From Rhodamnia argentea (lineage: Eukaryota; Streptophyta; Magnoliopsida; Myrtales; Myrtaceae), in assembly GCF_020921035.1 (NCBI RefSeq), contig NC_063157.1, positions 11,320,001-11,384,000 of the forward strand: 64,000 nt of DNA, in the 5' to 3' direction. The notes below the pieces were generated by a model that saw only the letters and a list, made by a program, of their open reading frames with translations, was not told the origin of the DNA and made no database searches. The position numbers were made by a program, and so were the translations under genes. The first letter of the stretch is position 1. Every line of letters begins with the position of its first letter. Shown in pieces: positions 2,991-64,000 of the stretch.

Positions 2991-3237
2991 GTCCAGGGTC
3001 ACGTGCGCGTCAGTCAGTCATGAGGTCATCCTCTCCTCCACAGCGAGAGAGTGCACGTGAGAAGATAAATTCGTACCGTTTCGTCCCATTTTGCTGAGCT
3101 CGCTCTGGCAGTTACTACTCCCAAAAGCCTCTCTCGCCTCAACCGCCCTAACTTCGCCGTACCCGGAGCTCCTCCGCTGCTCGCCTTCGTCGTCAGCCGT
3201 TCCGTTCCAGCGACAGACCCTGAGCAAGGGAAGAGAA

Positions 3238-6200
3238 ATGAGCGATCTTTGCCAGTTTCCTGGGCTGGAGCTTCCTCGCTCGGCTCCGGCTCCTGCTCCT
3301 GCTCCGGCTCCGGCGAAGGCTCCGGCTCCGGCTGCCGGTGCGATTTCTACTCTGGCTTCTGCTCTGTTTCGGGTCCCGTCGGCTTCTTCACGTAATTCTC
3401 TCTCTCTCTCTCTCGTTCGCGCGCGCGCTGAAAAATGCGCTCTGTGCTTGAAAAGACGCCTGTTGTCAAGTTTCGGTCCAGAGAAATGCATTGTTCGTGC
3501 GTTGGAGGACAAAATGACGCTGTGCTTGAAAAATGCTGCGAAATTTGTTTGATTGAATGAGATGACCTGGGAAGTTTTGACGGAAAAGAAAACCCTAAGT
3601 TAGAAAGCTCTTATTTTGAGTCCATTTTTCTGATGAACATCGAGTCCTTGTGCATTACCTTCGGTGATCAGGTTGTGTGAGAAGTTGGCGTTGGTAAATT
3701 GATTGATCGGTTTCTTTTGGCGAATTGGTTTGCCTCTGTTCTGGAATTTCAAATCGGTTGAGGTATATTTTGTAAACCAGGTATCTAAGAGTTGATTACA
3801 ACGTTAGCAGACACGGGAGTTTCCGTTGATAGCTGTTGGTTGAAGATGTGGAGTTTCTTTGCAAAATACTTCTAAATTACCATTGCATAAACAGACAAGA
3901 TTAAATGTCTCTTATTGTGGAGATGAACTTCGAGAGTAGATATGGTTACTACAGTTCCTCAGCTCATCCCCCATGGGAAAGGCTGCTCCTCTCATGCTAT
4001 GATTACTTTTTTCCATGATCTGTAATGGAAAGCTGTAAAAAGTGCGGCACAGGCATCGTTTGTCTGTGCCTTTCAATATGACAGTTACCTATCTCGTTTT
4101 TCAGCTGTGCCTGTCAAAAAGGACAATCTCAGTCAATTTCCTCAATCGGGACTTCCTCTTGCTCAAGCCCTGGCTCCGACTTCATCTCGGGCTCCCATGC
4201 AAGCTCAGGGGTCTGACCCTTCTTTACGTAAGTCCTGCTAATGAACAGTGATTTATAATGAGATTTGCGATAGCATAACGTAATCAAGAACGATTGGCTG
4301 TCCTGATCTGTAACGGAAAGCTGTAAGAAGTGCGGCACAGGCATCGTTTGTCAGTGCCTTTCAATATGACAGAATATGACAGTTACCTATTTCGTTTTTC
4401 AGCTGTGCCTGTCAAAAAGGACAATCTCAGTCAATTTCCTCAATTGGGACTTCCTCTTGCTCAAGCCCTGGCTCCGACTTCATCTCGGGCTCCCATGCAA
4501 GCTCAGGCGTTTGAACCTTCTTCACGTAAGTCTTGCTGATGAACATTGATTTATAATGAGATTTGCGATGGCATAAAGTAATCAAGAACGATTGGCTGTC
4601 CTGATCCGTAACGGAAAGCTGTAAAAAGTGCGGCACAGGCATCGTTTGTCAATGCCTTTCAATATGACAGTTACCTATTTCGTTTTTCAGCTGTGCCTGT
4701 CAAAAAGGACAATCTCAGTCAATTTCCTGAATCGGGACTTCCTCTTGCTCAAGCCCTGGCTCCGACTTCATCTCGGGCTCCCATGCAAGCTCAGGTGCTT
4801 GAACCTTCTTCCCGTAAGTCTTGCTGATGAACATTGATTTATAATGAGATTTGCGATAACATAACGTAATCAAGAACGATTAGCTTCTGCACGCACTTAA
4901 GTGGGACTAATAATTTTATTCTGATTGAAAGGATATATTACTGTATATGTGGACTTTGAACAACTAAATTCAACAAGGGTTTATAATCTGGTTAGGATAT
5001 ATTAGAAATTTGCATTCATTACTTTTTTTTTTGGTCAAATTTGCATTCATTACTTGATTGACCAATTTGTTTAGGCAAAGGTGCTTGAAAGTTGTTTTGC
5101 CTTTTTTCTGGAATCTCAAATGTGGTTGAGGTATATATTCAAAACCTGATATATAAGTTGATTACAATGTTAGCAGAAACAAGGATAGTGCACATCTAAT
5201 GTTTTGATCATAGCTGTTGGTTGATAGATGTGGAGTTTCTTTCCTAAATTACTTCTTACTTAACCATCCAAAAAACAAACAGGATAGCGTGTCTTTTGTC
5301 GTGGAGATGATATAGGGGGCTGGGTACGGTTCACGATAGTTCCTCATTTCATCCCCCAGTAGGAAAGGCTGTTCCTTACATGCTATGATTCCTTTTTCCA
5401 ATGATTTGAAATGGAAGGCTGTAAAGTGTGTGTCACAGGCATCATTTTCCAATATTACAGTCACCTGTCTCGTTTTTTCAGCTATGCATGTCAGAACGGC
5501 CAATCTCAGTCAACTTCCTCATGCTGAGCCTGCTCAGGATATGGCTCCACCTTCATCTCAGTCTCCCATGCAAGCGCCAGTGTTCAAACCTTCTCCGCGT
5601 AAGTCTTGCTGACGAATATTGGTTTATAGTACGATTTGCGTTAGCATAACGTAATCAAGAACGATTAGCTTCTGCATGCACTTACATGGGACTAATAATT
5701 GTTATCCTGATTGAAAGGATATATTACTATGTATGTTGACTTTAAACCACTAGATTCTCCAATGGGTTATCATCTGATTAAATGTGAAGTTGGCATACAT
5801 AAATTGATTGACCAATTTTTTTTTTTTGTGGCTAAAATGCTTAACAGTTAGTTTTTCTCTATACTGGATCATTTGAGATATAAATGGATAATGTGGTGTT
5901 AGAACTAAAAGTTGTACGTTATGTTTCTTTCTCCCAATTCTTTTTCATCAAGATTACACTATTTACGGCATACCTGATAATTGGCTACATAGGTTGGCTA
6001 TGATTGCGGCAGAAATAAAGGACAGTGCATGTTTTTTTTTTTATTTTTCAAGATGATCTCCTAATCGTTTGGTCTGAAAATGTGGAATCTCTTGGCTAAG
6101 TATTTCTTACTATATCATTCCAAAAGCAAACAAGACAGGTGTTTATTTTTATTTTTATTTTTTATGGGGGAGGCTTGCTATCAATTCTATCAATGAAGAA

Positions 6201-9200
6201 TAGGAGGGTGGACACTCTGGAGTACCCAATTCATCCCCCCATGTTATAGGCTGTTTGTCTCATGCTATGACTTTTTTACCCATGATCTAATATCAAATGT
6301 TGTAAAAAGTGCTAGAGAGCCCTTGTCTTTCAATATGACAGTCATTGTCTGTTGCATTTTTCCAGTTGTACCGGCCAGAATGGAAGATCTCAGTGAATTT
6401 TCTCAACCAGAACTTCCTTTAGCTATCCCTGCTCAGGCTCTAGTTCCAACTTCAACTCAAGATTCAGAGGAAACTCAGGTTTCCTGTGCTCCTCCTGGTA
6501 AATCTTGCCTTCTGTTTTGGTCTCTCATCTGATTTTACTTGTTCTTGGTAAAAAAATCAAGGTTAATAATCTTGTATAGCTTAAACATTTACCTAACTTT
6601 GGGCTTTGTCTCACTTTGCTCTCCATTGTTTCATTTTCTATGAATGTACCCTATGTATCCTGATTTCTACAGACCAAGTTTTTTCCGAATCGTACTGCAT
6701 GGCCCACTGTGTTCACATAGGGTCAAAACTATGTTTTTTGACAATAGATCCATTCGAATAGTCGACATTTGGCCCATGACTTTTAATACTTTGTTTTCAA
6801 GAACTTTCTTACTAACTATTGGCTATGAATCTTATTGACTAGAACGATAATTAGAGGGAAAATTGAAGTAATTTTGAGGACAAATGTGACTCTATGTGGG
6901 AATAAATAGATATCTGAGGTGTTGTGACAAATTTTAGCAACTTTACAAATGATGGTTATTTGAGAGAAAATTGAAACGACTTTGTTAAATCTAAAAGGTG
7001 AACCGGGAAAAATGATGTAACAATTAGTAAAAAGAGACCAATCCATAGCTTCATATGTATGACTCGATACTCAGGGAAAGGGTCCTTTTTTTTATTTGAT
7101 GTGTTTTGGATTCTTTCATCTACTTTGGAACGATAAATCTGACTTACTCGCAGAAAAAACTGAAAAATAAAAAAGAAATAAAAGATCTGCTACCTTTAGA
7201 GGTGGTAACATGCTTTTCGAGAAATTTTACTGCCCTGCTTGATGTGTCACATCCTTGTATCCCCATATATCCAGAAACGACTTCTAATTTGGCATTTACT
7301 TTAGTATGACCTTCCTATGAAGTGAAAAGGTTTGTGGTTGCTAGTTGTCAGTTGAGTGTAGAACCTGACATTTATTCTCTTTTTCACTCATGTTACCAAA
7401 TGGTCAAAAAGGACCGTCAAAATCCTGAAAATGGATGATGCTACTAGACAGTGGGCAAAAGACTAGTGATGTCTGTATCATTAATAACCAAAAAGCAGAC
7501 CTTATCTATGACATATGTAATTTATTCAGGTGTTCCGGAGCATATGATGTACAAAAATCGGTTGCAGGAGTATACGCAGAAGTTAATGGTGCATTTTCCT
7601 ATTTACAATACTATTAATGAAGGGTCCCAACATGCCCCGAAATATAGGTCAACGGTATTCGTAGATGGGAAAAGCTTCACATCTCCCGACACATTTCCCC
7701 AAAAAAAGGAAGCTGAGCAAAATGTTGCTCAAATTGCATTGGATCTTTTGTCGCAGAAGATGAAGGATGAAGGCTGTCCTCTCATCCATGAGGTTTGAGA
7801 ATTCTTTACCTATTGCTGCTATCTTGATATACATTGCGAGCGATTCACTTGAATTGTTAGTTAGCATATGTTGTATAGTTGAAATGTTGGAAATCTTTAT
7901 CTTTGAGTTACGGCCATATTGTTATCTTGCAAGTGGATATCTTGAGGAAACCTTGAACTGAACCAACATATCATTTGAGACCTTGCTATGACCGTACATC
8001 AGGCGGATTTCTCTGCAATTTCTACTCATTAATATTGTCTTATAAAAGCTAATCACAAGAACGTGCCTTTCTATGGTTGATGATATAATTATCCTTCTAT
8101 GTGCATGTCCAGAGGAGGTCAACATTTGATTCTCATTATCTAAATGTTCTTGTCATGTTGTCATGTTCCTGGTGTCTTGTCTGATCTTTAGATTGATTTT
8201 CCTGGTATTGTTTCTATCGAATGACTGGCAGTTATTATCGACTATTTGGAACCACTAAATCCATTGAGGAATATGAAGATAGGAGGTATGAAGGTGCCAC
8301 TTGGGTGCTAACTTAGATAATAAGACACTAGGAAGTAGTCTTCAATATTTTACAATCTGTTTCAACCAATAGCAACTAGAAAACAAGATTTTTGCTTCAC
8401 ACTCACAATGCTATATTTTGATTCTTGATTCATCCTTCTGTTTTTTTAACTAATTCACTGGTTGTTTCATTACTGCACAGGATGCAATTTTTTGCAAGTC
8501 CATTCTTAATGAATATGCAGCCAAGATGAACTTGGAAATGCCCAATTACACAACTATTCAGCCACAAGGGGCAGTTCCAGTTTTTGCATCTTCTTTGGTA
8601 TTCAATGGTGTAACTTACACCGGCGGCGTTGGTAAAAGCAAAAAGGAGGCTGAACAATTGGCAGCTCGTACTGCCATTCAATCCCTATATGGTATGCCAG
8701 TTTTTACACTTTATTTTGAATGATTCTACCCATTCAACTAATAAAGGATGTAATGCAGCTGATAGCGAGTCGAAAATGGTTCTTTTGAGGACGATCAAGT
8801 CTAAGTGCAAACTTTATGCTGCATACCGGGAGCCCAAGTATTCATGTCCTGTTGGAGCGAATGTGGGAGGCAATTCTGAAATCTCAAATACCGAGCATAA
8901 AGAAGCTTTAGCTTCCGGGCCAGCTGATTATATTCTTGGTCGTGCTATTCCCGAGGCATGCTCAGAGGTACCTAAAGCACATCATTTGTTCCAAATACCA
9001 AGACCAGTGGCTACTGCAGTAGGGAATCCCTTGATTTCCTTTGTTCCTTCGAGTACCGAACAGCAGCCTATTGCTGCTACTAGTTCTGGTAAAAAGCGAC
9101 GCAAGAACAAGAAGAAGGCCAATAAGAAACCGCGTGTTGATCCTCAGTAGGTTCTACTCTTTACTTCTAAAATCCTTCTTTTAAACCATATTAACTGAGC

Positions 9201-9696
9201 TTTTGTCATCGTATAGGGTGGCTACTTTTCTTTGAACTTTGTTTCCTTAGTTTCCTAGATGTGTGCTATATAAGTGTCAATTAATATGCATACTAATGAT
9301 AATTTTCAGGAGGATATCTTTAAAGACACCTTTACTCCTGTTACCATTTCCTCTTTAACAGATCGGTGAAAAATCTTGGAATATTTTTTTACTGCTTCCT
9401 AATAAAATCTTTCTCAATAAAAATAGTCGACCACCTTGTTGGACACTTGTGCGGTGACCGTGAGCGATGAATTGTTGCTGGACAAAGTGTTAATGTTTGC
9501 TTTTGCAGTTTTTGGGTTGACGTCTCCACTTATGTCGGTCAAAATGCATGTGATGCATGCTTGTCTGCCTGCGTTTCTTCCTGTTTTAGAAGTTGGATCA
9601 TTCATTCTGTTGCCTAATATTCGTAGTCTTTGCAGGTTACCCAATGCTGTGATGATGCCTTCTGACCAAGCCCCGCCTTGTTCTGTTGCACAGTAG
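3238..9696 (+). CDS. double-stranded RNA-binding protein (DRB family), ten exons
   Basis: Exons read by eye: 3238-3391, 4105-4227, 4403-4525, 4691-4813, 5482-5598, 6366-6497, 7530-7792, 8481-8691, 8759-9146 and 9636-9696. All have GT-AG borders and compatible phases, giving 1695 nt and 564 residues. Residues 1-257 are a Pro/Ala/Gln-rich extension: exon 1 holds an Ala-Pro run, then come five homologous copies of one exon. Two dsRNA-binding domains follow at about 260-345 and 346-415; each ends in the expected basic helix region (PQKKEAEQNVAQIAL and GKSKKEAEQLAARTAI). The tail has a strong basic cluster (GKKRRKNKKKANKKPR), probably a nuclear signal, and ends APPCSVAQ. DRB proteins partner Dicer-like enzymes in small-RNA processing; which one this partners cannot be told. 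The ATG at 3238 is chosen because exon 1 shares the phase and composition of the repeated exons. If the last intron is retained, translation stops at 9150. The acceptor at 8758 is the least certain junction. Confidence 0.88.
4023..4890 (+). repeat. three tandem repeats of about 290-298 bp, each holding one DRB exon
   Basis: Three head-to-tail units each contain intron sequence (gtgcggcacaggcatcgttt), a 3' splice site, a 123-base exon and the following donor. Exon starts are 4105, 4403 and 4691, giving spacings of 298 and 288 bases. The intronic parts are nearly as alike as the exons, so these duplications look young. Two older diverged relatives of the same unit lie at 5482 and 6366. Confidence 0.9.
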
Positions 9697-19980: not shown

Positions 19981-22702
19981 TAGACATGGCTAGTTCAGCC
20001 GAACCGCCGGTTCCGGTTCCACGAAAAGGTGGAACCGACAGTTTCGGGCCGGTTCCGGTTCCATATTTTTTAATTTTAATTTTTAAAATAATAAATAATA
20101 AAATAAACATAATAAATTATAAATTATAATCAAATTGTACATTGTAATTAAATTTGGGGAAAAAAAGAGAGAGAGGAGGAATGGGCTTGAACGTAATGAA
20201 TTATCATTAAGCGCCTACATATCTTCTTGAGTATAGAAGAATCAAAGCCCATATAGTTCTTTTACCTTTGATAACCCCAACTTACCTCATCGTCAATCGT
20301 TGCTACCCGTGGCGGTGATATCTGCACAATCCTCATTAAAAAATTCGTGTTTTCGATCCAGCTCTTGATGTCGAAATCTAGCCTTCGTCCAATCGTCGAC
20401 ACAAACTTGAGCTTCCACAAACTCCGGACTTAATCTTGAACAATGAGAGTCCAAAACTAATCCTTCAGCACTAAATGCTTGTTCAACCGCAACTGTCGAA
20501 GAAGGAGTTGCTAATATCTAGCGAATGATGATGGTGAGAATTGGGTAATCGATTAAGTGACTCTTCTACCACTCCAGGATTTGGAAATCTGTACTATGTT
20601 TGGCATCACGAAACTCAAATTGAGTGGTTAAATATTTTTCTAATTCAAAAATACTACCTGTTGCCCTTTTTTATTTTTTTTGTCTACTCTTGAGCATATT
20701 GTACCATCTACTAAGTGAGCTACCAGCTTCCCTTCGTGAGGCAATAGATTGTAAAGATCCACAATCACTTAAACCATATCTAGTATAAAATTCTCCATAT
20801 AATACTACTATAGATTCTTTAACCTCTCATTGTATATTTGAAATATCTATTGCATCTTCCAAATGTAAACAATCATAATAATACACATTCAGATAATCTA
20901 GTAAACCACTAATTTAATACGTGGATAAAAAATAATACCAATTAAATAGGCAAGAGGATTTTTGAAATAATAATGCAACCATTTTTCTCGCATTACTAAA
21001 ATAGTCCGAGCTAATTCAAGTATCTTTTTATATTCACTAAAAACACCACCAATATTGACACACTCTATTAAAAATAAATGCGTAGTAGGATAATAAATAC
21101 CAGATAAAGTATTAGTAGCATCATTAAAAATTTTCAAAAAATCTAAATTTTTGTTTGCAAATGTCCCAATATTGCGGAAGTAAAGTAATTTCGGGAATAT
21201 TTTGCGAAATAAACATATGTAATAAATCTTTGTAATCAAAAGTTTGATGAAGCAACTCGTAGGTAGAATTCCAACAAGTCGGAATCTCTTTTGGAAACCT
21301 TTTTGCCCTTCTTCCATGTTATTTACAAAGTTTTCTCCATGCTTTCATAAAATGGGCACGACTCCATAAAAATTTAATTGCACCCTTTATTGGGGTGAAA
21401 GAAGTCTTAAGAGTTCGTAAACCATCTTGTACACATAAATTTAAAACATGGCAAACATATTTAATGTGAAAAAATTGTCCGCCAAAAGAGGGTTTGCAAA
21501 TATTTTCTAATTCGGGAATGGAAACGGTATTTGCGGCTGCATTATCAAAACCAATTGAAAATACTTTATTTATCAAATTATATTATTCTAAAACTTGCCT
21601 AATTATTTTATAAATATTATGAGCTGAATGTTTTTCATCAAAAATTCGAAATGTAATAAATCTTTTTTGAATGGTCCAATCGTCACCTATCCAATGACAC
21701 GTGACACCCATATAAGAATGAATTTGTCAAGAATCACTCCAAATATCGTTACCTAAATGCACATGTCCATTGAATTCCACAAAAATTTTTGCTAAAGATT
21801 TTTTTTTATTTTTTATAAAGATGCAAAAGTTCATGTTTAAGAGTACTTTTTGGAATAGTTGCTGCTTGCGGAACCAACGCAGTATTTATCAAATATTTCA
21901 AATTAAAATTTTCACCAATAGTAAACGGAGCATGATCAAGGGTAACATATTTAGTTAATGTTTGTTTATAAAGTGTCTCAGTGTAACGGAATAAATGATG
22001 AGTATTAGAATTGGTATACCCGGAAATTTGTTGTTGCATAGTGTTGATCCCGGCTTGCGTTGGATGTTTTTTCCTCAGACGCCGACGGAATGTTCCGTAG
22101 CCGTCTCCTTTCGTAAATTTGTATGTTTGCGAACAATATTTACAATTTATATTATACTTACATTCGCTTTCATCATATACCTTGTCGAAGTGCAAGAACA
22201 AGTCTGACGTACTCTCTCGGCCCTTTCGTTCCGGCTCATTTGCTGTCGACGTTTTTTCGACACCGGTAGGAGGATGAAAACTTTCTTGTGTTGGGACGTG
22301 CTCGACGTTTGGAATGGGAACAACGTTGATATTATCATCTCATCTTCCCAATATGTATACTCACGAGGATCATATCCGGGAATAGGATACTCGGAATCTC
22401 TCATCGCCATCTTGGCCTTTCCAGTATTTTTGCTTCCACTTGTCATTTTTTAGAGAATTGATCGGAAGTTCAATTGAGAGAATTGATGCGGTATTGAGAG
22501 AATTGAGCGGATTGAAATAATTTGAGAGAATTGAGCCGTTTGTAGGGGGCCCGAGGGGGAGAGGGGGGGAAGAGCCCAACGGCTCTTTCCCCATCGGGCC
22601 CCACCCCCCCACTTTTTAAAAAAAATAAAATTAAACTGGTCGGAGCCGGTGGTTCCGGCCCGGTTTCGATTCCAGGCCCAAGGTTCCATTTGGCCATGAC
22701 TA
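19981..22702 (-). mobile_element. decayed hAT transposon with BED-finger transposase, copy 1
   Basis: Element ends are tagacatggc at the left and tggccatgacta at the right. The 8-bp flanks gtcgtgtg (19973-19980) and gtcacgtg (22703-22710) match at six positions. On the minus strand, broken frames resemble a plant hAT transposase: a BED-type zinc finger (about 22200-21990, FDKVYDESECKYNINCKYC then HPTQAG), then central and C-terminal parts down to about 20900. Several stops and shifts interrupt it, so it cannot be active. The right subterminal region has repeated gagagaattga units and g/c-rich accgg motifs. It is a relative of the element at 40928-43789 in opposite orientation. Confidence 0.85.
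20898..22446 (-). pseudogene. hAT transposase remnant (copy 1)
   Basis: Pieces in order on the minus strand are 22446-22147 (Lys-rich start and acidic YDPREYTYWED segment), 22201-21806 (BED zinc finger), 21576-21319 (FDNAAANTVSIPELE, CHVLNLCVQDGL, core of the RNase H-like fold) and 21317-20898 (LSGIYYPTTHLFLIE, insertion and C-terminal region). The frame is interrupted at least at each of these joins. The dimerisation domain near the end is not in one piece. Confidence 0.75.
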
Positions 22703-26097: not shown

Positions 26098-27406
26098 GAA
26101 GTCTTGTCATCTGATTTGGTCGGACCTGCAATACAGATTCAAGTCTCACCCTTTGGCGTCCACCGAATTCATGAATGGCTACTAAATTTTAGTCATACCT
26201 CTACAAGTTTCTTTTTTTTTGGGTCCAAACAAACTTCATTCATTACTAACTCGAAGGTGGAAAACAAGAGTTTTCGAAGTCAAAACATAAAATCAGCCAT
26301 AGGGGATGGGGAGGTTTGGAAATCCGATAAGGCAGAAGGGAGTCTGTTCTGTGGGCCTTCGCCACCCAATCCGCTGCCTGGTTTGATTCTCTGGGCTCAA
26401 ATATAACACTAACGTTTTGCAACTGGGCCAACAGTGAGGTGCAATCATTTATAATTGTTCGAGCAGCCCATGGAGTTCCCTGTCGGCCCGATACGTAGTT
26501 CACCACTGATAGATTATCTGTTGATATTTGCGCGCGCGGATCAGTTCCATTACTCAGTTTAGTTCGTGCACCTCTTGTCTTCTTCAGCCTCGACAGTGCC
26601 TCCCTCACAGCTAGGGTTTCGGCGACAAGGACGGAAGGGGCGTGGATCTCCTTTGCGAATCCATACGTGATGAGGCCGTGACTGTTCCTGCATATGCCCG
26701 CGACTGAACCGACCAAGGTAGAGCAGCACCATGAGCTATCCACGTTAAATTTGAAGCCGTTTGTCGGCGGGGAGGTCCACTGTGCCGGTGGGTGTCTATT
26801 TCCTCTTACTGTTCTGCCCTTTCTCGGATTCGACTTCGCATGAAGCTTATTCATCAAGATTGCTTCTTCTACGTATGCTCTGGGGTTGGGTCGCCTGGCT
26901 TGGAAAACCCCCTGGTTGCGCGCCTTCCATGTCAACCACAATACTCCTGCGAACAGAGCTTTCTGATCTGGGTCGACTTTGGGGGTGAGATTTCCTAAGA
27001 CCCATTTGTCAATTCGAGTGATTTTTCTAGGGGAAGTGTCGGCCATGAGATGCGAATTTGCAAAGAAAGAAACAATGCCATTCTCCGAAAAAAGATGCCA
27101 AACCCAACGATCTCGTCAGCAGAACCATGGCGGAAAATCTTTGCTGTACCTCGGATCTGGTTATGGGCTTCAAGGACTTAAAAGCTATATAGCCCATTGT
27201 AGCATGAAATCTAACCCGGTTGCGGACTGGCTTGCAAAAGCCCGTTGCAATAGGTCTTTACCCTTTAATTAGTTGTCTAGTCCGTCGAGACCCTTATGAG
27301 CTTTACTTTATTCGGAATCTAGTTTTTTGTACTCAAACTTTTGAGTTAGCTAATGAATTTCCTTTTCTGACCAGTAGCAAAAAAAAAAGAAGAAGTCTTG
27401 TCATCT
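26098..27406 (+). mobile_element. LINE insertion with perfect 15-bp target duplication, nested
   Basis: gaagtcttgtcatct occurs at 26098-26112 and 27392-27406. The second copy directly follows an A-rich tail (about 27379-27391), as expected for a plus-strand LINE. Just before the tail, about 27205-27270 encodes NPVADWLAKARCNRSLP, the last part of a plant LINE RNase H-like domain. Most of the interval is occupied by a second LINE fragment in the opposite orientation. Confidence 0.75.
26209..27150 (-). mobile_element. 5'-truncated LINE with RNase H-like (RVT_3) domain
   Basis: On the minus strand an open frame (27046-26246, 266 residues) continues upstream out of the track start as RWVWHLFSENGIV. 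It encodes the tail of a plant LINE ORF2: a zinc-binding connection region followed by an RNase H-like domain. Visible acidic residues are FNVDSSW, ETLAVREAL and STDNLSVV, and the last motif is NQAADWVAKAH. The 3' end reads through aatgaagtttgtttgg into an A-run (T-run at 26212-26220 on the plus strand). The reverse transcriptase proper is missing, so it is 5'-truncated. The long uninterrupted frame suggests a fairly recent insertion. Confidence 0.8.
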
Positions 27407-40717: not shown

Positions 40718-43700
40718 TAGGTTCATAAGATGTCTCTCGATTGTGGAATGGATTGGTGATTGATTTATAAGTGTGAGGGAAACCTCATCCTTTGAGCATT
40801 TATAAGTGTAAGGGAAAATCTCATTTTTTGAGCTAGCTTTTGAATGAGAGAGGTTTAAGACCACCACACACTGGTATTTTGTACCTAACAGTGATAGGGG
40901 AGAGGTATGAGTTGTTGCTGCTTCGACTAGACATGGCCAAATTGAACCATGGGTCCGGAACCGGCCCATTGACCTAGCCCACAGTTTCGACCAATTTAAT
41001 AATTAAAAAGGGGGAGCTGGTGGGGAAAGAGCCGTTGGGCTCTTCCCCGGTTCCCCCCCTCCCCCAAACGGCTCTTTGGGCAGTTGCTTCACCAAAAAAA
41101 AAAGTAATTTTTTTTAAAGTTAAATAATCCTCTCATTCTCTATAAATATCTATCCTCCCCTTTCATTTTTCTCATAAATCCTCTCAACAATTCTCTCAAA
41201 TTCCCTCAATCCACTCAATTCTCTCGGTCCCTCATCAATTCTTTCAATCGGATTTCTGATCAATTCTTTAAAAAATGGCAAGTGCAAGTAGAAATACTGA
41301 AAATGCCAAGTGGTGATGGGAGATTCCGAGTATCATATTCCTAGATATGATCCTCGTGAGTATACATATTGGGAAGACGACGATAATATCAACGTTGTTC
41401 CCATTCCGAACGTCGAGCACCTCTCAATACAAGAAAGTCTTCATCCTCCTACTGGTGTCGAAGAAATGTTGATGAAAAATGCGCCGGAACGGAAGGGCCG
41501 AGAGAGTACATTCGACTTGTGGTTGCACTTCGACAAGGTATATGATGAAAGTGAATGTAAGTATAATATAAATTGTAAATATTATTCACAAATATACAAA
41601 TTTACGAAAGGAGACGGCTACGGAACATTCTGTTGGCACCTGACGAAAAAACATCCAACGTAAGCGGGGATCGACACTACGCAACAACAAATTTTCGGGT
41701 ACGCCAATTCTAATACTCATCCTTTATTCTGTTACACTGATGCACTTTATAAACAAAAATTAGCTGAATATGTTGCCCTTGATCATGCTCCGTTTACTAC
41801 TGGTGAAAATTTTAATTTGAAATATTTGATAAATACTGCGTTGGTTCCGCAAGTACTAACTATTTCGAAAAGTACTCTTAAACGCGAACTTTTGTATCTT
41901 AATAAAAAACAAAAAAAATCTTTAGCAAAATTTTTTGTGGAGTTCAATAGATGTGTGCATTTAGGTAACGATATTTGGAGTGATCCTTAGCAAATTCATT
42001 CTTAGATGGGTGTCACGTGTCATTGGATAGGTGACGATTGGACCATTCAAAAAAGCCTTATTGCATTTTGAGTTTTTGATGAAAAACATTCGGCTCATAA
42101 TATTTATAGAATAATTATGCAAGTTTTAGAATAATATAATTTGATAAATAAAGTATTTTCAATTGATTTTGATAATGCCGCCGCAAATATCGCTTCCATT
42201 CTCGAATTAGAAAATATTTGCAAACTCTCTTTTGGCGGACAATTTTGTCACTTAGATGTGCTTGCCATGTTTTAAATTTTTGTGTACAAGATGGTTTACG
42301 AACTCTTGAGATTTCTCTCGCCCCAATAAAGGGTGCAATTAAATTTTTATGGAGTCGTGTCCATTTTATGAAAGCATGGAGAAAATTTTGTAAACAACAT
42401 GGGAGAAGGACAAAAAGGTTTCTAAAAGATATTCCGACTCGTTGGAATTCTACCTACGAGTTGCTTCGTCAAATTTTTTATTACAAAGATTTACTATGTA
42501 TGTTTATTTCGTAAAATATTCTCGAAATTACTTTACTTCCGTAACATTGGGATGTTTGCAAAAAAAATTAGAATTTTTGAAAATTTTTGATGATGCTACT
42601 AATACTTTATCTAGTATTTATTATTCTACTTCGCATTTATTTTTAATAGAGTGTGTTAATATTGGTGTTTTTTAGTGAATATGAAAAAGATACTGAATTA
42701 GCTAGGACTATTTTAGTAATGCGAGAAAAATCGTTGTATTATTATTTCAAAATTCCTCTTGTCTATTTAGTTGGTATTGTTTTTGATCTACGTATTAAAT
42801 TAAATGGTTTACTAGATTATCTGAATGTGTATTATTATGATTGTTTACATTTGGAAGATGCAATAGATATTTCAAATATACAAGGAGAGGTTAAAGAATC
42901 CATAGTAGTATTATATGGAGAATTTTGTACTAGATATAGTTTAAGTGATTGTGAATCTTTACAATTTACTGCATCACGAAGTGAATCTGGTAGTTTAATT
43001 AGTAGAGGGTACAATATGCTCAAGAGTAGACAAAAAAAAAAAATAAATAAAAAGGGGCAACATGTAGTATTTCTGAATTAGAAAATATTTAACCACTCAA
43101 TTTGAGTTTCGTGATACCGAACATAGTACTGATTTCCAAATCCTGAAGTGGTGGAAAAGTCACTCAATTGATTAACTTGTTTTCGCCCTCATCGCTCGCG
43201 AGATATTAGCAACCTCTTCTTCAACAGTTGCGATTGAATAAACATTTAACGTTAGAGGATTAGTTTTGGACTATCGCCATTCAAGATTAAGTCCGGAGTC
43301 GGTGGAAGCTCAAGCTTGTGTCAACGATTGGACGAAGGCATTTAGCGTAGGAGCATTTCGACACCAAGAGCTGGATCGAGAACATGAATTCTTTAGTGAG
43401 GATTGTGGAGATACCACCGCCACGGGTATCACAACGGGTAGCGACGATTGACGATGAGGTAAGTTGGCGTTATCAAAGGTAAAAGAACTACATGAGTTTT
43501 GATTCTTTTATCCCCAAGAAGATATGTTGGCGCTTAATAATAATTAATTAAGTTCAAGCCCATTCCTCCTTTCTCTTTTTTTTTCCCCAAATTTTATTAC
43601 GATGTATAATTTGATTATAATTTATAATTTATAATTTATTATGTTTATTTTATTATTTTCTATTTTAAAAATTAAATTTAAAAAACGGAACCGGAACCGG

Positions 43701-43945
43701 CTTGGAATCGCCGGTTCCATCTTTTCTTGGAACCGGAACTGTCGGTTCTCGAACCTGAACCGGCGGTTCGGCAGAACCGACCATTTCTAGTTCCGACCCA
43801 TGTCCCAATGTGTGAGAGGGAGATTGTTAGAGTTGTCCTACATCGGTTGTGGAATGAACTGGTGGTCGGTTTATAAGTATGAGGGAAAATCTCCCTTTGA
43901 GCTAGCTTTTGAACGAAAGAGGCCCAAAACTATTCAACACATTTT
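40718..43945. mobile_element. small LTR retroelement fossil (TRIM-like) with a hAT inserted in it
   Basis: Two similar LTR-like segments lie on either side of the hAT at 40928-43789. The left one is about 40718-40890, ending gtacctaaca. The right one is about 43825-43945 or a little longer, starting tgttagagttgtcc. They share ttgtggaatg, tttataagt and gagggaaa phrases and a gagctagcttttgaa motif. A purine-rich tract (gagagggaga) directly precedes the right segment, as a polypurine tract would. Between the segments only about 70 bases are not hAT, so no coding region existed, as in TRIM elements. It is old and broken. Confidence 0.5.
40928..43789 (+). mobile_element. decayed hAT transposon with BED-finger transposase, copy 2
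   Basis: Ends tagacatggcca and accatttcta, with flanking 8-mers gcttcgac (40920-40927) and gttccgac (43790-43797) that match at six positions. Plus-strand pieces: 41310-41663 (YDPREYTYWED, then FDKVYDESECKYNINCKYY and KKHPT, a BED finger in which the second Cys of the CxxC pair reads Tyr), 42218-42514 (CHVLNFCVQDGL, FLKDIPTRWNSTYELL), 42442-42675, and 42653-43081 (SEYEKDTELARTILVMREK). Multiple stops and shifts. Near-identical architecture to copy 1 at 19981-22702, so both derive from one autonomous family. Confidence 0.85.
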
Positions 43946-46380: not shown

Positions 46381-47305
46381 TAATTACTATAACACATCGC
46401 CGGTGTAAATATTTAAAAGAAACACTTATAAAATGAAAATACATATCTTGTATTACGTAGGGACATAGTAAAAATCGCTATGATGCCATCATTCGAGATC
46501 ATATTTGTTGTGATATTAAAAAGAGGAATAGTCACTTGACTTGAAGCACAAGTTTTCTAAGAACACTTCCTCAAGTCTATCACCAAATATTCAAAAGATA
46601 TCGCAAAAGATACCAAGCTAGAATTCTCATTCGAATTTTGTGCCGAGAAGACTTGGAATTCTTTTGGAAATTTTTTTTATTATGAAGAACGAAATTAAGG
46701 TTCATTACCCTTATAATTCCTTTTAATAATATGACCAACGGAGTGGTCAATTTAAATCAGAACAATAAGCATGTTTCAAAAATCAATTTGGCTAACCCTC
46801 ATTTTTCTCAAGTTCCTTTCCAAGTTTTTATGCACACATCTTAGATAGATATAGATAGATTGAATAAATAAATGTAGGTACTAACTAATCTAAGTAATAC
46901 TTTTGATTAAAATTTTCATTAATTTTTTATAAGTTGATGTGATAAAATTATTAATGCAAGTATAAACAATTGAATTACATTTAAGCACGCAGCAAAAGTA
47001 CGCTAATATCGATTCATAATATAATTTTCTTGAATATAATGGACCTATACGAAAGACTCTTTAATATAAATGACTTGGATAATTTCTCAGACTGACGTTG
47101 CCAAAATTGATTTACCATGTTTTAAAATAAAAATTCAGTTAGAACAATTTAAAATCAAAGAAACCCGGTTTTTTTTCAAATGTTGATCTTTTATTTTTTC
47201 TTCTGTTTTTATTGTTTGTGAAATGCTATTGTTATCACATTAATTGCCACCCTCTCCAGTTGGCAACGGTAATTAACTAACCCACGTCATCAATTGGAAT
47301 TATTA

Positions 47306-47308
<3 letters not shown>

Positions 47309-47368
<60 letters not shown>
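47309..47368. repeat. (TA)n microsatellite in the PLATZ A promoter
   Basis: About 60 bases of TA lie between gaattattacga and ttaagtttgacttcaaagtg. In PLATZ C (52556) and E (62808) the same flanks enclose only about 15 bases. Confidence 0.9.
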
Positions 47369-47370
<2 letters not shown>

Positions 47371-47706
47371 GTTTGACTTCAAAGTGCAATTTCCTAAATT
47401 AAACCTACTTCTCCCACTCACCACACCACACGCACAAAATCATCTTGATATATCGGAATGTCTTATTTTATTTCCTATTGTGACTTTGAATTATCATATA
47501 TACTTGAACCCCACTAATTCCTTCATTCACCTTCGCTTACCTTACCCTACAGTTCTAACAAAGTCTCTCTGGTCTCACCTACCTCCCCTCTCTCTCGCAA
47601 AAGCTCAATTTCCATTAGATCTTCTTCGCCACCTCCTCTCTTTCTTCTTTTGGTCCCAATTATAGAAACGAGGCGAGCCACGACAAGAACGGTGACTGAT
47701 GGATTG

Positions 47707-48578
47707 ATGGTCTCGTCAGAAGATGATCAGGAGAAGGCCGTTCCCCGGTGGTTGAGGCCGATTGCGGGTGCCAAGTTCTACTGCTCGTGCGAGACTCATC
47801 GCTCCAAAGAACGCAATTACTACTGTAGAGTTTGCATGGTCTCTTTCTGCAAAGATTGCAAGGAGCAACACGATCGCTCCAAGCACGAGATCCTCAAGGT
47901 AACAATTTCCATTCAGAATCGTCTACCATCCAACAATTTTAAGGGCATTTTTTTTTTTAAGAAGTGGGTTGCAAAACTGTGCTATGTAGTACTCTCTTTC
48001 TTTGTATGATGAAGAAAACGGGAAATTAAGGTTACTTCTGTTGATATTGAATTTTTCCCCTTGTTAAGATTTTGTTTATGGGTTTTAACCTTCTTAGGTA
48101 TATAAAACTTCCCATGCGGCATCCTTCAGGGTAGAAGACTTGAAGCCGTTGTGGGATATTTCCGGTATCTGCATGTACACTTCCAACGGGTGGCTGGTCG
48201 CCCTCATATACAAAAGGGGAATTGGGATCTCTGGCTCCCGCGGTAAGAAGGGCATCGCAGAGTGCGAATCTTGCTTGTATGGGCTCAAGTCGCCGAGTGC
48301 CAAGTACTGCTCCGTGGAATGCAAGGTGACGATCAAGCACTTCTTTTCAAACCAACCTCGTTGTTTCATGTTCTGCAAATTCGAAGAACATTTTCTCACA
48401 TTTGGGTCCTTTTTTTTGTTAGGTTGAAGCTGCGTTGAAGATGAATGGAAGTGGAAGTATTACCGAGAAAGCAAAGAGGAAGCTAGAAACAATGTTAGAG
48501 GAGATTGCTCATGATGTTCACTCATTCAGAAAACGAGCAAGAAAGCAAAAAAAACCGCAGAGAGCTTTGTCTCATTAA
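47707..48578 (+). CDS. PLATZ zinc-binding transcription factor, array member A
   Basis: Exons 47707-47898, 48098-48325 and 48423-48578 have GT-AG introns and phase 0 throughout, giving 191 residues. The PLATZ pattern is present: VPRWLRPIAGAKFYCSC, then CETH, CRVC, CKDC and EQHDRSKHE (first zinc site, residues about 32-61). LKPLWDISGI follows, then CESC...YCSVEC (second zinc site). The C terminus is Lys/Arg-rich (KRARKQKKPQ), probably nuclear. PLATZ proteins bind AT-rich DNA and often repress transcription or assist RNA polymerase III. The start used here lies seven to eight codons inside the start of members B and C, whose ATG position is ACG in this copy. A two-codon upstream frame (47699-47707) overlaps the start codon by one base. 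Confidence 0.85.
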
Positions 48579-48599
48579 ATTGATATTTTGTGTAAATTG

Positions 48600-49855
48600 G
48601 GAATGGGCTAATGGGTTTTGGTAAATATGATTACTTTTCCTTTTAATTTCAGTGGTATATTCCTAATACGAAACAATTCTAATTTTTTCCTCACATTTGA
48701 AGTGCAGTACTGCAACAATTATATTTTTTTCTTGTATTATGTGGCAGCGGTGCTGGTGTTTTCTTTTATTAAGTATTAGTTACATTAAACTCTGCTAATT
48801 TAAAATGTGAATAATTTAACTAGATAAACATAAAAATGTGAAAATATCAAGATTGCCCACTCTCTTTTTTTTCTTTCTTCCTTCTGATTCCGTGACCTAG
48901 GTTCAATTTTGCACACTAGGTATTTTCGGAAACCAAAAATGAGACGGATGTCCCAAATTTTCCCTTAAATATAAGCCAAATCAGAGGGAAAATGTATCAA
49001 ACTTATACCCGCTGGATAAAAATATCATCACTTTTACTTGAGGAACAAAATTACCGATTGTCTTCCGGTTATAAATTTATGCATTTGTTGAAATCTAGCC
49101 CTTAAATAACTAGATTCACATGATTTTTTGGACCAGGACTCTTGTAAGCCACCCCATCAACTAAATCCATTAGCAAGAATTTTGGGCTAGACGGTTTCAA
49201 TTTTGGCTAGCCATAGAAATTCTCTATCCGTCTATTTTTGGTAACCTCCAGTTTGATCGGGGAAACCACAGAAAATAAATCTGATAACGAGGGTTACAGG
49301 CTCGGTCAAGAGGAAAAACTATAATAATGTAGCTGCTAAAATTCATTTTGAATATTGAAAACCATTGGTCTTATCTCATTAGATCTGGCCATCTAGATGT
49401 ATTTTAGTACATGTGTCACATATGTCCATTCTTATTTCTTTTTAAGCAAGTATAACTTTGAGAAGTGTTGTGGCCTATTCAACAAAATTAAGGACGATTA
49501 AATTTTTAAAGAGGAAAAGTTAATCTTACAGAATAATTATTAAAAACACCGCTAGTGTAAATATCTGAAATAAGCCGTTATATAATGGAATTAACCACTT
49601 GTAATACACAGGGACTTAATAGTGATCGATGCTATGATGTATGATGTCATAATTCGTGATCAAATGTGTTGAGATGTTAGAAAGAAGGATAGTCACTTGA
49701 CTTGAAGCACAAGTTTTCTAAAACCACTTCGACAAGCCTATCACCAGAGATTGAAAAATAATCTTATAAATACCAAGCTACAATTCTCATTCGCATTGTT
49801 TTTTTTTGTTTTTTTTTCTTTTAATGAAAATGTTCCAGCAATTTTCCTTCTAACT
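48600..49855. other. spacer between PLATZ A and B; upstream part of array unit 2
   Basis: No gene. From about 48850 it parallels 44430-46650 of unit 1 without the foldback, MITE and SINE found there. The paralogous SINE-free site is near 49519. Confidence 0.6.
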
Positions 49856-50620
49856 AATGCGTTTGAAGAGAAGACTTGGAATTCTGTGGACTTTTTTTAT
49901 TATTATTATGAAGAACAAGATGAAGGTGGATTGCCTTTATGATTCCTTTTTTGAAATGACCAAGGGAGTAGTGAATTTAACTCAGAAAAATAAACATGTT
50001 TAATAAACCAATTTGGCTAACCCTCATTTTTCTCAAGTTCGTTACCCGGTTTTTATTCACATGTACTTAGCTAGATATAGAAAGATTGAATAAATAAATG
50101 TATGTACTAATTGATCTGAGTAATATTATGGGTGAAAATTTGATTATTATTTTACAAACTGATGTGATAAAATTATTAATGCAAGTATAAACAAATGAAT
50201 CACACTTAAGCACGCAATAAAAGTATGCTAACATATCAATTCATAATATGATTTTGCTGATTCTAATGGACCAATAACAAAGACTCGTAAATACAACGTG
50301 AGTGCCAGTGACTCAGCGAGACTTATATAAAGGTAACGACTTCGATAATTTCACAGATTAATGAATAAAAAAAAAGTTACAGTTTTATTTGTTGCCCAAA
50401 ATTGATTTACCTTGTTTTAAAAAAAAAATCAGTTAGAACAATTTAAAATGGAAGAAATCCGTTTGAAAATCACAATTTATTTTTCTCTTTTTATTGTTTT
50501 TGAAATGTATTGTAATCGCATTAATTGCCAGCATCTTCTTCGCTACTGCCTCCTCTCTTTCTTCTTTTGGGATTTCCTTCCTCTTTTTCAAATTTTGAAG
50601 AAGCGAGCCAAGCCGCGAAA

Positions 50621-51428
50621 ATGGTGGTGACTAATAGATTGATGGTCTCGTCAGAAGATGATCAGGAGAAGTTTGTTCCGCAGTGGTTGAGGCCGATTAC
50701 GGTTGCCAAGTTCTACAGCTCGTGCGAAACTCATCGCTCTAAAGAGCGCAACTACTACTGTAGAGTCTGCATGCTCTCTTTCTGCAAAGTTTGCAAGGAG
50801 CAACACGATCGCTCCAAGCACGAGATCCCAACGGTGATAATTTCCATTTAGAATCCTCTGCATCTCAGGACTTTTTAATGGATTTTTTTTTTTAGTTAGT
50901 AGGGTTACGAAACTGTGCAATGCAATACTCTCTATCTTTGCATGACAAGGAAAACTGGGAAATTAAGGTTACTTATCTTCATATTGAATTCTTTCTCTTT
51001 TTCTGATTCTCTTTATGGGTTTTAATCTTCCCAGGTATATAAAACTTCATGCATGGCGTCCTTCAGAATAAAGGACCTGAAGCCGCTATGGGATATTTCT
51101 AGTATTCATCTGTATACTTTCAACGGGTGTTTGGTCGCCGTCATATACAAAAAGGGGATAGGGATCTCTCGTTCCTGCTATAAGAATCGCGTCGCGGAGT
51201 GCGAATCTTGCCGGTATGGGCTCAAGTTGCCGAGCGCCAAGTACTACTCCGTGGAATGCAAAGTGACGATCAAACACATCTCTTCAAAGCAACAGTGTTT
51301 TTTTAATGTTCCATAAATTCGAAGAACGTTTTGTCACATGTAGGTCGTTACTTTGCTTTTTGTAGGTTGAAGCCCCGCTAAGGATGGATGAAAGCATGGT
51401 TTTAATGAAAAGGCAAAGAGCAAGCTAG
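50621..51428 (+). CDS. PLATZ zinc-binding protein, array member B, altered C terminus
   Basis: Exons 50621-50833, 51035-51262 and 51366-51428 encode 167 residues, about 24 to 31 fewer than A or C. The first zinc site is partly changed (CETH, CRVC, then CKVC in place of CKDC). In the second site the third Cys of CESC...YCSVEC is Tyr (KYYSVEC). Exon 3 has lost one base relative to member D (after GATGAAAGC), which shifts the frame to an early TAG at 51426 and removes the basic tail. Splice sites are intact. It is either a young pseudogene or a truncated protein; loss of a zinc ligand favours the former. Confidence 0.7.
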
Positions 51429-52820
51429 AGACAACAGTAGAGGAGATTGCTCACAATGTTCACTCAATCGAGAAACGAGCAAGAAAGCGGATAAAACCGC
51501 ATAGAGCTTCGGTTCATTAGATTGATTCAAAGATTGGAAATTTGGTAAATTTGGTGTAAGTTTAGGATGGGCTAATGGTTTTGGTACATATGGTTAATTT
51601 TCCTTTTAATTTTATGGGTGTATTCTTAATACGGCTGATTGAAACTACTAAGATTTTCGTTATTTTTGTCTCTCTCTCTCTCTCTCTCTCTTTTATTTTT
51701 ATTTTTATTTTTTGTGTAGGAGATAATAAGAGTGCTATTAGCACCCACTAGATCCGCCTTGTATTTAGAGAAATAAACTCTATTGATTTTTCCTCCCATT
51801 TGAAGTACAGTAATGCAACAATTATATATGTTTTTCTTGTCTTATGTGGAATCGGTGCTTGGGTTTTCTTTCGTAGGTATTAGTTACGTTAAACTCTGCT
51901 AATTTAGGTTCTACCGACCGAAAAGAGTTACTATTATTATTGTCGTTGTTGTCATTTGCTTATTAATTCAATTTGTTTATTTTGGGATTAATGCTTTCTC
52001 ATGTTCCAAAGAGGTGGAAAACCAGCGTCGCTTTTGGTTCTCTCAATAAAAAAGTAAAAGTAGAACACCTTTTGTCTAATTAAGTGGATAAAATCGGTGC
52101 ATGCTGAATATGATTATTTATGTAAAGATAAATCGACGCATTGTGCCTAAATAAGGGGGGCCATAAATGGAACAGAAACAAAACATTGACGCCATTAATC
52201 TCTTACTCCACCACGCCAAATGGGCACTTCGAAGATTGAGGCCCAAGCAATCATTGAAGAACCCCTCTTGCCACCGAAGATCTCAATTTTCAATGTAATG
52301 ATTCTTAATAAAAGAGGGTAGCAAAAAAATTACAATGCCGCTAATAAAAAATCTCAATTTAAAAAAAATGGAACAACTAAAAATCGATGGAAATCACGTT
52401 TGGAAAATGCTAATCCTTCTTTTCGTAATTAATTTTTTTTAAAAAAAATTTTACAAATGGGGATTGTTATCTCATTACTTGGCAACTGGAGATGATTGCC
52501 AATATATGACATCTAGCGAGTAACGGTAACTAAACCAATCCCATGTCATCAAATTGGAATTATTACGAAATATTCGCAAAATATAGTAAGTTTCGACTTC
52601 AAAGTGTTGTTTCCCGAACCGAGATCTTTTGCGCGTGGTGTGATGAAAATCTTGATATATCAGCATCTTGGATTGTATTTCCTGTTTCTTACTGATACTC
52701 AGTCCTCTCCACTCCTCGTTTCTTCTCTCTCGCGCAGTTTCCTTACATCTTCGCTGCCCTTCTCTCTTTCTTTTTCTGGGATTTCCTTCTTTCATCAAAT
52801 TATAGAACCGAGCCGCGACA

Positions 52821-53737
52821 ATGACATTGACAGATGCCATGATGGTCTCGTCAGGAGAAGATCAGGAGAAGGTCGTCCCCCGGTGGTTGAGGCCGCTCGT
52901 GGACGCCAAGTTTTACAGCTGGTGCGAGACTCATCGCTCCAAAGAGCGCAATTATTACTGTAGAGTTTGCATGCTTGCTTTGTGCAAAGATTGCAAGGAA
53001 CAACATGATGGTTCCAAGCACGAGATCATCACGGTAATATTTCTCGTTTTGAATCGTCTTCGTCTCTATTATTTATAACGGCACTTTCTTTTCACAGTGG
53101 GTCGCAAAACTGTGCACTATTGTGCTTCGCTATCTTCGTTTGAACTGGGCAACGGGAAATTAGGGTTTCTTCTCCTTATGCTGAATTCTTTACCCTTTAG
53201 TTTACTTTTTGTTTATGGATTTTCACCTTCTCAGGCATATAAAGCTTCACACATGGCATCCTTCAGAATGGAGGACTTGAAGCAGCTGTGGGATATTTCT
53301 GATATCTGCCCATATACTTTCAATGGGTGGCTTGTTGCCTTCATATACAGAAAGGGAACCGGGATATCTCGTTCCCACTGTAAAAGCGGTGTTGCAGAAT
53401 GTGAATCTTGTCGGTATGGGCTCAAGTTGGCGAGCGCCAAGTATTGCTCCGTGGAATGCAAGGTGATGAGCCGAACATATCTCTTTGAACTAATCGGGTT
53501 TTTGATAGTTTACTACGATGTGAAGATCTTTTTCTCACATATGGTTCGCTTGTTATTTTTTTTTTTTCCCTTTTTTTGTAGGTTGAAGCGGCGTTGAAGA
53601 AGAACGGAAGTGGAAGTATGGATTTGAAAGCAAAGAGGAAGCTAGAGACAATAGTGGAAGAGGTTGCTGAAGATGTTCACTCATTTAGGAAACGAGAAAG
53701 AAAGCAGCAAAAACCGCAAAGAGTTCCGTCTCATTAG
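52821..53737 (+). CDS. PLATZ zinc-binding transcription factor, array member C
   Basis: Exons 52821-53033, 53235-53462 and 53582-53737 are all phase 0 and give 198 residues starting MTLTDAMMVSSGEDQEK. PLATZ elements are complete: VPRWLRPLVDAKFYSWCETH, CRVC, CKDC, EQHDGSKHE, LKQLWDISDICPYTFNGW, CESC...YCSVEC, and a basic end (KRERKQQKPQ) that suits a nuclear protein. The upstream 300 bases contain a block (ccatgtcatcaaattggaattattacga) shared with members A and E, a candidate conserved promoter. Its twin E differs at only a handful of residues (for example Leu/Val near the start, His/Arg in SRSHC, Arg/Gln in CRYG, Thr/Ala and Val/Ala near the end). Confidence 0.88.
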
Positions 53738-54247
53738 ATTGATAATTGGTTTTGTTTGGTACATATGGTTAATTTTCATTTTAATTTTTGTGCTACATTC
53801 ATGATGTGGCTCATTGATACTACTGGGATCTTCCTAATTTTTCCCTTTTGTGGATCTGGAGAAATAAACTCTAATTTTCTTTTACTTCTATTTTGAAGTA
53901 TAGTTATGCAACAATTCTCTCTTTTTCTTGGTTTATGTGGAATCGTGTAGGTGTTTCTCTTTTCTTAGTATTAGTTACATTACTCTGCTAAATTCAGTTC
54001 TACCTGTTCTCTGTTTTTCCCTCTTTTTTTTTTTTTACTACTACTACTACTACTGTGTCTAATTAGCAGAGTCTTAACTTTTCTGAGTACAATTCATCGT
54101 TTCATCAAGAAATGTCTTGTGGGTGAAGAATTTGAAGCAAGAGAACACTAATTCAATTGATTATTTACAGCGAAAGTTCAATCAACAGCATATTTGGGAA
54201 AAAATAAATATAAAAATGAATGAACGAAAAAGGAAATATCAACAGCA

Positions 54248-56834: not shown

Positions 56835-56839
56835 TACCG

Positions 56840-58440: not shown

Positions 58441-59260
58441 TTAGTTTTACTCGTTTACAAACATTTTAAATTTACTAACTTGTTTTAGAACTTGCCGATC
58501 GCAGTTAGAATAATTACAACTTTTCTCCAATTGAGTTACCAACTAGTTTTGCTTACCAACTTTTCTTACTAACATTTGAATGTATCAACAATTTTATGAA
58601 ATCGTTAACCTTGTTATATGACATACTAACCTTTCTTCCAGTTTAATGACCCACTAGAATAGTTGGTAAATTAAAAAAAAATAAATCAAATAACTGTTGA
58701 TAACTAACTCAAATGAGAGTTGATAATTAAGAATTGGTTGATAACTTAATCGGAGAAAAATTGATAAATTATTTAAAGTAAAGTTGGTAATTTCATATGA
58801 ACGTCGGCAAGTGTAAGGGATTGGTAAGAAAAGTAAACAAAAGTTGGCAAAACATAAGAAAAAGTTTGTCATTAAAAGAAGAAAATAAACTTGCAAATTA
58901 ATGCAAATGAGAGCTGGCCATAAAAAATTATAGTAACTTAATCGGCGAAAAGTTAATAAGCCACTTTAATTTTTGCTTGCAATTTCTAAAAAAGTTGGTA
59001 AAGTTAACGCATTAAGAAATGCAAACACGAGTTTGTATAAGAAAAGTTGGCAAATAAAAAGAAATCAAAAGAACGTCATTGAGTAACTCGTATGAGAGTT
59101 GGTAATCCTATACTAAATGGTATATTTATAGGAGAAAAGTTGGTGAGTCACTCTAATTTAGCTTATTAACTTCAAAAGGAGTTAGTAAATATAGAGTTTT
59201 GCTAACCAGTGCAAATAAAAGTTGACGACTCAACAAAATAGTCAATAAAACAAAACAGTG
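58440..59260. repeat. degenerate repeat region with inverted gttggtaa motifs
   Basis: The left part is rich in ttaccaacttttctt-type phrases and the right part in their reverse complement (aaaagttggtaa, gagagttggtaat), repeated many times with variation. Together they form a long imperfect foldback with simple internal repeats and no coding capacity. Confidence 0.5.
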
Positions 59261-61781: not shown

Positions 61782-61943
61782 ATTGATTCAAAGATCGGAA
61801 ATTCGGTAAATTTGGTGTAAATTGAGGATGGGCTACTTGGTTTTGGTACATATGGTTAATTTTCCTTTGAATTTTATGGGTGTAATTTTTAATACCGCTG
61901 ATTGAAACTACTAAGTTTTTCGTTATTTCTATCTCTCTCTCTT

Positions 61944-61963
61944 TTGTGTGTGTGTGTGTGTGT
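61944..61963. repeat. (TG)n microsatellite
   Basis: Ten or so TG units after a TC run. The matching place in the left copy (about 51671-51700) has only a longer TC run, so this is a difference gained after the duplication. Confidence 0.8.
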
Positions 61964-63987: not shown

Positions 63988-64000
63988 ATTGATAATTGGT

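Follow-up and report, generated by a model that had tools for sequence, protein, structure and literature searches.

Serial tandem duplication of a phase 1-1 exon in a predicted HYL1/DRB1-clade gene of Rhodamnia argentea

Introduction

How did a run of related small exons come to stand in front of the RNA-binding domains of a predicted plant protein, and does the run do more than lengthen that protein? The question is raised by a locus in a 64,000-nucleotide stretch of the Rhodamnia argentea genome (NCBI RefSeq assembly GCF_020921035.1, contig NC_063157.1, positions 11,320,001 to 11,384,000, forward strand), which as a whole we call the window. A predicted gene in the window carries five homologous exons between its first exon and two double-stranded RNA-binding domains (dsRBDs). 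Tandem duplication of symmetric exons is a known general class of event, and we consider it probable that the array arose by ordinary duplication of this kind, giving the protein an elastic, disordered and weakly constrained N-terminal spacer before its two dsRBDs.

Results

Structure of the predicted gene

The predicted gene spans positions 3238-9150 on the + strand and comprises nine exons (lengths in nucleotides, nt):

3238..3391, + strand: exon 1, 154 nt, ATG start, phase 1 at its end, beginning MSDLCQFPGLELP...; possible founder unit
4105..4227, + strand: exon 2, 123 nt, phase 1-1
4403..4525, + strand: exon 3, 123 nt, phase 1-1
4691..4813, + strand: exon 4, 123 nt, phase 1-1
5482..5598, + strand: exon 5, 117 nt, phase 1-1
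6366..6497, + strand: exon 6, 132 nt, phase 1-1
7530..7792, + strand: exon 7, dsRBD1 (Pfam dsrm; PDB relatives)
8481..8691, + strand: exon 8, dsRBD2 (Pfam dsrm, two stretches)
8759..9150, + strand: exon 9, C-terminal tail with a basic KKRRKNKKKANKKPR stretch at its end, then the stop (joined frame)

Every intron of the gene is of the GT-AG type, with AG before and GT after each of exons 2-6, and exons 1-9 joined give 1638 nt encoding 545 amino acids, with a single stop at the end. The first-pass annotation of this DNA had described five related, frame-neutral exons, all of phase 1-1, and the coordinates, splice-site dinucleotides and open frame agree with that description. All five would be included in the mRNA.

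Pfam dsrm matched two stretches of the protein (E 4.1e-25), which thus has two tandem dsRNA-binding motifs. A DSRM_2 match lay below the Pfam cut-off, and at E up to 0.01 no Pfam family was found in the protein beyond the dsRBDs. The 264-residue N-terminal part ahead of them consists of Pro (18%), Ala (15%), Ser (13%) and Gln (9%) among other residues. Pro/Ala/Ser-rich is therefore a better term for it than the earlier Pro/Gln-rich. Argonaute hooks are GW/WG repeats; since these 264 residues contain no Trp, we rejected a tail acting as an Argonaute hook.

Repeat units of the array

The exons of the array lie within larger repeat units, which were delimited by Tandem Repeats Finder and repeat comparison (U2-U4) or by repeat comparison (U5 and U6):

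4016..4303, + strand: tandem unit U2 (head, exon 2 and tail)
4304..4601, + strand: tandem unit U3
4602..4890, + strand: tandem unit U4
5034..5700, + strand: older unit U5, with an intron head of ~450 base pairs (bp) and a tail of ~100 bp
5772..6497, + strand: oldest internal unit U6 (B type), with a diverged head and exon 6

Tandem Repeats Finder reported an array at 4016-4885, with 3.0 copies of a 298-base unit and 92% matches. The start-to-start spacing of the copies was 298 and 288, close to the 290-298 bp previously given for near-identical tandem units around exons 2-4. When the peptides of exons 2, 4, 5 and 6 were compared with shuffled sequences (exon 3 left out), none of 2000 shuffles scored as well in five of the six pairs, and three did so in the weakest pair, exon 5 versus exon 6. 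These low counts indicate that the relatedness of the exons is not due to chance. Across seven aligned unit exons, residues L9, S10, P25 and S27 are invariant.

The homology of the units also reaches into the introns. The intron upstream of exon 2 (from ~3667) matches the one upstream of exon 5 (from ~5034) and, more weakly, the one upstream of exon 6 (from ~5772). These matches point to three old units, the first of which was tripled later. The later tripling took along a head of ~90 bp and a tail of ~80 bp, and the head of U3 is longer than the others (99 versus 89 bp). The array thus consists of adjacent homologous exons that share one phase and are flanked by homologous introns, as in tandem exon duplication, and exon and intron homology together bear out the proposal that one symmetric phase 1-1 exon was duplicated serially.

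Units that are 93-95% identical and lie in tandem might also be produced by faulty assembly. However, pairwise differences among the three units amount to 4.9-7.3% of sites, the longer U3 head sets one of them apart, positions 3001-9500 contain no N, and the older U5 and U6 form an array whatever U2-U4 are. An assembly artefact is therefore highly improbable.

Sister genes in the same genome

We searched the window's own genome (346.66 Mb, 74 contigs) for relatives; C8 denotes the side of the window gene and C5 the contig of its sister genes. Three sister genes lie on C5, at 22.83, 22.75 and 22.68 Mb, ~72 and ~81 kb apart as judged from the places of dsRBD1. In each, a single A-type exon (123 nt) and a single B-type exon (120 nt) stand between exon 1 and the exons for dsRBD1 and dsRBD2. 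No stop interrupts the frame of any of the three across the array and the two dsRBDs, and the C-terminal ends differ. Copy number thus differs between sister genes, with five array exons in the window gene versus two in each of the three C5 genes; it may also still be changing, as the first-pass annotation had proposed.

Searches with unit-exon peptides (E up to 10, with only the best candidates scored) returned 11 and 9 matches, all of them in the window gene and the three C5 genes. We rejected the spread of the unit by a transposon, as every match of the unit exons and of the 298-bp unit, among the candidates that were scored, fell in these four genes.

The C5 genes (9.9 kb each) also carry extra tandem 3' copies, 928-930 bp apart, made up of part of dsRBD2 and the last exon: two in the gene at 22.83 Mb (L021) and one each in those at 22.75 Mb (L022) and 22.68 Mb (L023). 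A partial fourth copy at C5:22.656 Mb (L046) has dsRBD2 and the last exon, with no match to the 5' half within 9 kb. Degenerate dsRBD lookalikes that contain stops were seen at C8:29.54 Mb (L024), where there are several dsRBD1 fragments, and at C2:16.76 Mb (L025); no recognisable unit exon was found within 9.9 kb of either.

Order of duplication and loss

We compared whole units (head, exon and tail) and, separately, the longer heads. Whole units U2, U3 and U4 differ from one another by 4.9, 5.6 and 7.3% and from the C5 A unit by 13.6-17.6%. U5 differs from U2-U4 by 19.4-21.7% and from C5 A by 19.5-19.9%, and A-type units, U5 included, differ from B-type units by 34-39%. The corresponding values for heads were 18.5-19.0% for U2 versus C5 A, 27.5% for U2 versus U5, 29.2-29.5% for U5 versus C5 A and 36-44% for A-type versus B-type. 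Ordered by divergence, the events are the split of A from B (34-44%), the split of A from the exon 5 unit (27.5%), the split of the C8 and C5 genes (10-19%) and the tripling of exons 2-4 (5-7%).

In the tree of heads, U2 grouped with C5 A at support values of 100/97 and U5 fell outside. Holding U2 together with U5 was rejected by the approximately unbiased (AU) test (p 0.011), for a group that was named after the tree had been seen. Since the exon 5 split precedes the gene split in this tree, the C5 lineage probably lost one unit and the C8 lineage gained two. Most simply, the ancestor had three units (A, U5-type and B), one of which was lost on the C5 side, while A was tripled on the C8 side.

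Coding status and constraint

Between the C8 and C5 genes, substitutions amounted to 16.3% for exon 4 versus A, 12.5% for exon 6 versus B, 14.0% for exon 1 and 20.5% for exon 5 versus A, a pair that would be older according to the head tree. The values were 10.4-15.9% in five stretches of intron and 7.6% in the two dsRBD exons. All four non-redundant indels in the array exons and exon 1 were multiples of three; of 36 indels in these intron stretches, 9 were (hypergeometric about 0.008). Exon 1 contributed two of the four, both 18-nt gaps in repetitive sequence that may be an alignment effect, and exon 5 versus A and exon 6 versus B contributed one each; indels between exons 4 and 5 (2/2 multiples of three) were left out as redundant. 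With the frame kept and divergence like that of introns, the array exons look coding and weakly constrained, and the newest copies look neutral.

Translation might instead start at the two ATGs that head dsRBD1, which would leave the array mostly untranslated, as a leader or an alternative 5' end. The opening of dsRBD1, EHMMYKNRL, does hold two ATGs, and the solved DRB2 and DRB3 chains start at MYKN. However, all five array exons of the window gene, and both of those in each of the three C5 genes, lie in an open frame, whereas 176 of 3268 overlapping 120-nt segments are open in five introns of the window gene. The indel pattern described above also speaks for translation, and the start codon in exon 1 is preceded at -3 by A (AGAGAAATGA). 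We give an untranslated array only a slim chance.

The first-pass annotation had further suggested a possible tuning of localisation or partner binding by the tail. In such a scheme each unit would bring a short motif for interaction or localisation (core NLSQFPQ..LP), selection would act on copy number and exon skipping would vary the length of the tail. This would fit the recurrence of the core in all units, with its four invariant residues, the frame-neutrality of all five array exons and an excess of synonymous (dS) over nonsynonymous (dN) divergence when exon 4-A, exon 5-A, exon 6-B and exon 1 were pooled (rounded counts, p 0.029). However, the excess is not significant without exon 1 (p 0.10), and dN/dS is 0.37-0.67 in five C8-C5 array exon pairs versus 0.36 in the joined dsRBDs. 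The amino acid is changed at all six variable codons of exons 2-4, one of which has an additional synonymous difference between exons 3 and 4, and no known motif was matched (neither Trp for GW/WG nor a Pfam family). Since the array exons diverge as fast as the introns, a tight function of the tail is disfavoured; we found the suggestion unsupported and regard functional tuning as unlikely. Positive selection on exons 2-4 was set aside as well, six variable codons being too few for a test.

Exon 1 as a possible founder

Over its first 35-39 nt, exon 1 can be aligned in frame to the core of the units, DLCQFPGLELP in exon 1 corresponding to NLSQFPQ..LP in the units. Against exons 2, 4, 5 and 6, the score of the whole exon 1 peptide was equalled in 6, 33, 103 and 3 of 2000 shuffles; once the first 13 residues had been removed, the counts were 123, 667, 1252 and 933. 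Dinucleotide shuffles of DNA, in which the GC-rich repeats of exon 1 raise its scores, were as good in 0, 1 and 0 of 200 cases for window exon 1 versus exons 2, 5 and 6, and in 0 and 4 of 200 for C5 exon 1 versus C5 A and B. When the 5' part of window exon 1 was compared as DNA with exon 4, exon 6, C5 A and C5 B, 4, 26, 1 and 132 of 2000 shuffles were as good, and for the 5' part of C5 exon 1 the numbers were 7, 247, 0 and 80. Four of these eight tests thus fell at 0-7 per 2000 and four at 26-247.

The tails of units 4 and 5 matched C5 intron 1 (2 and 15 of 2000 shuffles as good, respectively). In window intron 1, no tail stretch was found with the unit 4 tail (118/2000); the control comparison of this tail with the intron after exon 6 gave 972/2000. 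Intron 1 versus later introns gave 0/200 in three tests and 88/200 in a fourth, the head of the following unit accounting for most of the matches. These comparisons give mixed evidence, on which the earlier proposal that exon 1 is the founder of the unit exons is plausible.

Within exon 6 there is an in-frame ATG (GCCAGAATGGAAG), with A at -3 and G at +4, which lines up with the exon 1 start codon. One could imagine that the start exon of an HYL1-clade gene was copied downstream as a frame-neutral cassette, whose number rose or fell through unequal exchange in the individual sister genes, and that this provided a small-RNA cofactor with a length-adjustable N-terminal arm, with exon 6 able to serve as an alternative first coding exon. 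We hold this combined scenario to be distinctly unlikely.

In the C5 genes, exon 1 has one more in-frame DLCxFP motif (DLCQFPDLCLFP) through a small duplication that the window gene is without. In the C5:22.83 Mb gene (L021), exon 1 lies at 4109-4262 of the reverse complement.

Relationship to DRB proteins

Matches to the window protein in the PDB were DRB4, DRB2, DRB3 and HYL1. The best was DRB4 (2n3f, E 1.6e-18), the only plant chain listed that covers both dsRBDs. In a dsRBD tree of 13 rows and 141 columns, where the HYL1, DRB2 and DRB3 rows came from the PDB with dsRBD1 only, the window pair nevertheless grouped with HYL1 and an HYL1-like gene at C2:20.13 Mb (98/97, or 98/96 minus two rows), on a long branch (1.34 and 1.53). 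The DRB4 identity prompted by the best PDB match was rejected when the window pair was held with AtDRB4, C7_9, C6_22 and C11 (AU p 0.017), as was a grouping with DRB2/3-like rows (AU p 0.020). The DRB4-like rows formed no supported clade of their own in the 13-row tree. The description as a DRB gene with two dsRBDs thus stands on the Pfam and PDB matches, and the tree refines it: the predicted window gene groups with the HYL1/DRB1 clade, as a diverged member.

The GPxH loop is a feature of canonical dsRBDs. In the alignment, dsRBD2 of the window protein is without it, and so is the HYL1-like dsRBD2. The C2:20.13 Mb gene, a separate and closer relative of HYL1, gave no match among the best candidates scored in the unit-exon searches. 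The DRB4-like gene at C7:9.48 Mb (L040) has its dsRBD1 in two pieces in different frames, which a short intron, a frameshift or faulty assembly would explain.

Other features of the window

A large pair of inverted repeats occupies 20001-22533 and 41188-43748, with arms that are 83-95% complementary. Two frames in the left arm have weak, below-cut-off matches to zf-BED and hAT RNase-H; in the right arm, one frame matched neither. The pair is perhaps formed by two inverted hAT transposon remnants. An open frame at 26249-27115 has a reverse-transcriptase-like domain (RVT_3, E 5.1e-15). Several repeat families, in five copies, are clustered at 46645-64000, where one frame has a match to PLATZ transcription factors (E 1.1e-11) and another a B-box match below the cut-off.

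Discussion

Our results suggest repeated tandem duplication, within a diverged HYL1/DRB1-clade gene, of one phase 1-1 exon that may itself have been copied from the start exon. Unequal crossing over within the repeats would be the simplest mechanism. Because the units bring their own splice sites and exon lengths that are multiples of three, copies stay in frame after any gain or loss. The product would be a Pro/Ala/Ser/Gln-rich spacer of variable length, ~40 amino acids per unit, ahead of the two dsRBDs. This segment would be disordered and weakly constrained, and there is little sign in the sequence that unit copies do more than lengthen a floppy tail.

Several points weigh against this reading or its details. 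The splicing of each array exon is predicted only. Whole units place U5 about as far from C5 A as from U2-U4, the whole-unit and tail trees leave U5 unplaced, so that heads alone place it, and in the head tree U5 sits on a long branch. In C5 exon A, the best breakpoint separates 77 U2-U4-like versus 29 U5-like sites before it from 3 versus 7 after it, which 313 of 10000 label shuffles equalled; this is only suggestive of a recombinant exon A, with the unit lost by a crossover inside it. Gene conversion may have occurred, and the pooled excess of dS over dN seen with exon 1 may reflect some constraint.

Compared with other symmetric-exon duplications, phase 1-1 exons were likewise copied with their intron flanks and the frame was kept. 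In contrast, the copies in the window gene look additive rather than mutually exclusive, and exon 1 may be the founder. DRB4 is the best solved match over both dsRBDs, yet the window gene groups apart from it. In the likeness to HYL1/DRB1, a Dicer partner of plants that binds dsRNA, both proteins have dsRBDs that group together and a tail built of repeats. According to excerpts of one report, Arabidopsis HYL1 has six 28-amino-acid repeats in a presumably unstructured C-terminal region, and its two dsRBDs suffice for microRNA processing (PMC4237382); excerpts of another describe the C-terminal region as dispensable and poorly conserved (PMC4701949). By analogy, a spacer is favoured in the window protein too. 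However, its repeats are separate exons of ~40 amino acids, N-terminal to the dsRBDs, whereas those of HYL1 are C-terminal and of 28. In the open-licence literature, no paper on this exon array was among the matches listed.

As an ordinary tandem exon duplication the array is well supported, and its history, with several tiers of gain and a probable loss, is unusually easy to read. The evidence favours near-neutral drift of the array, and its wider importance is therefore modest. Here a single genome shows one exon of an HYL1-related protein being gained and probably lost, with copies of graded age, and the window gene would offer a natural test of neutral tail length in a Dicer-partner-like protein.

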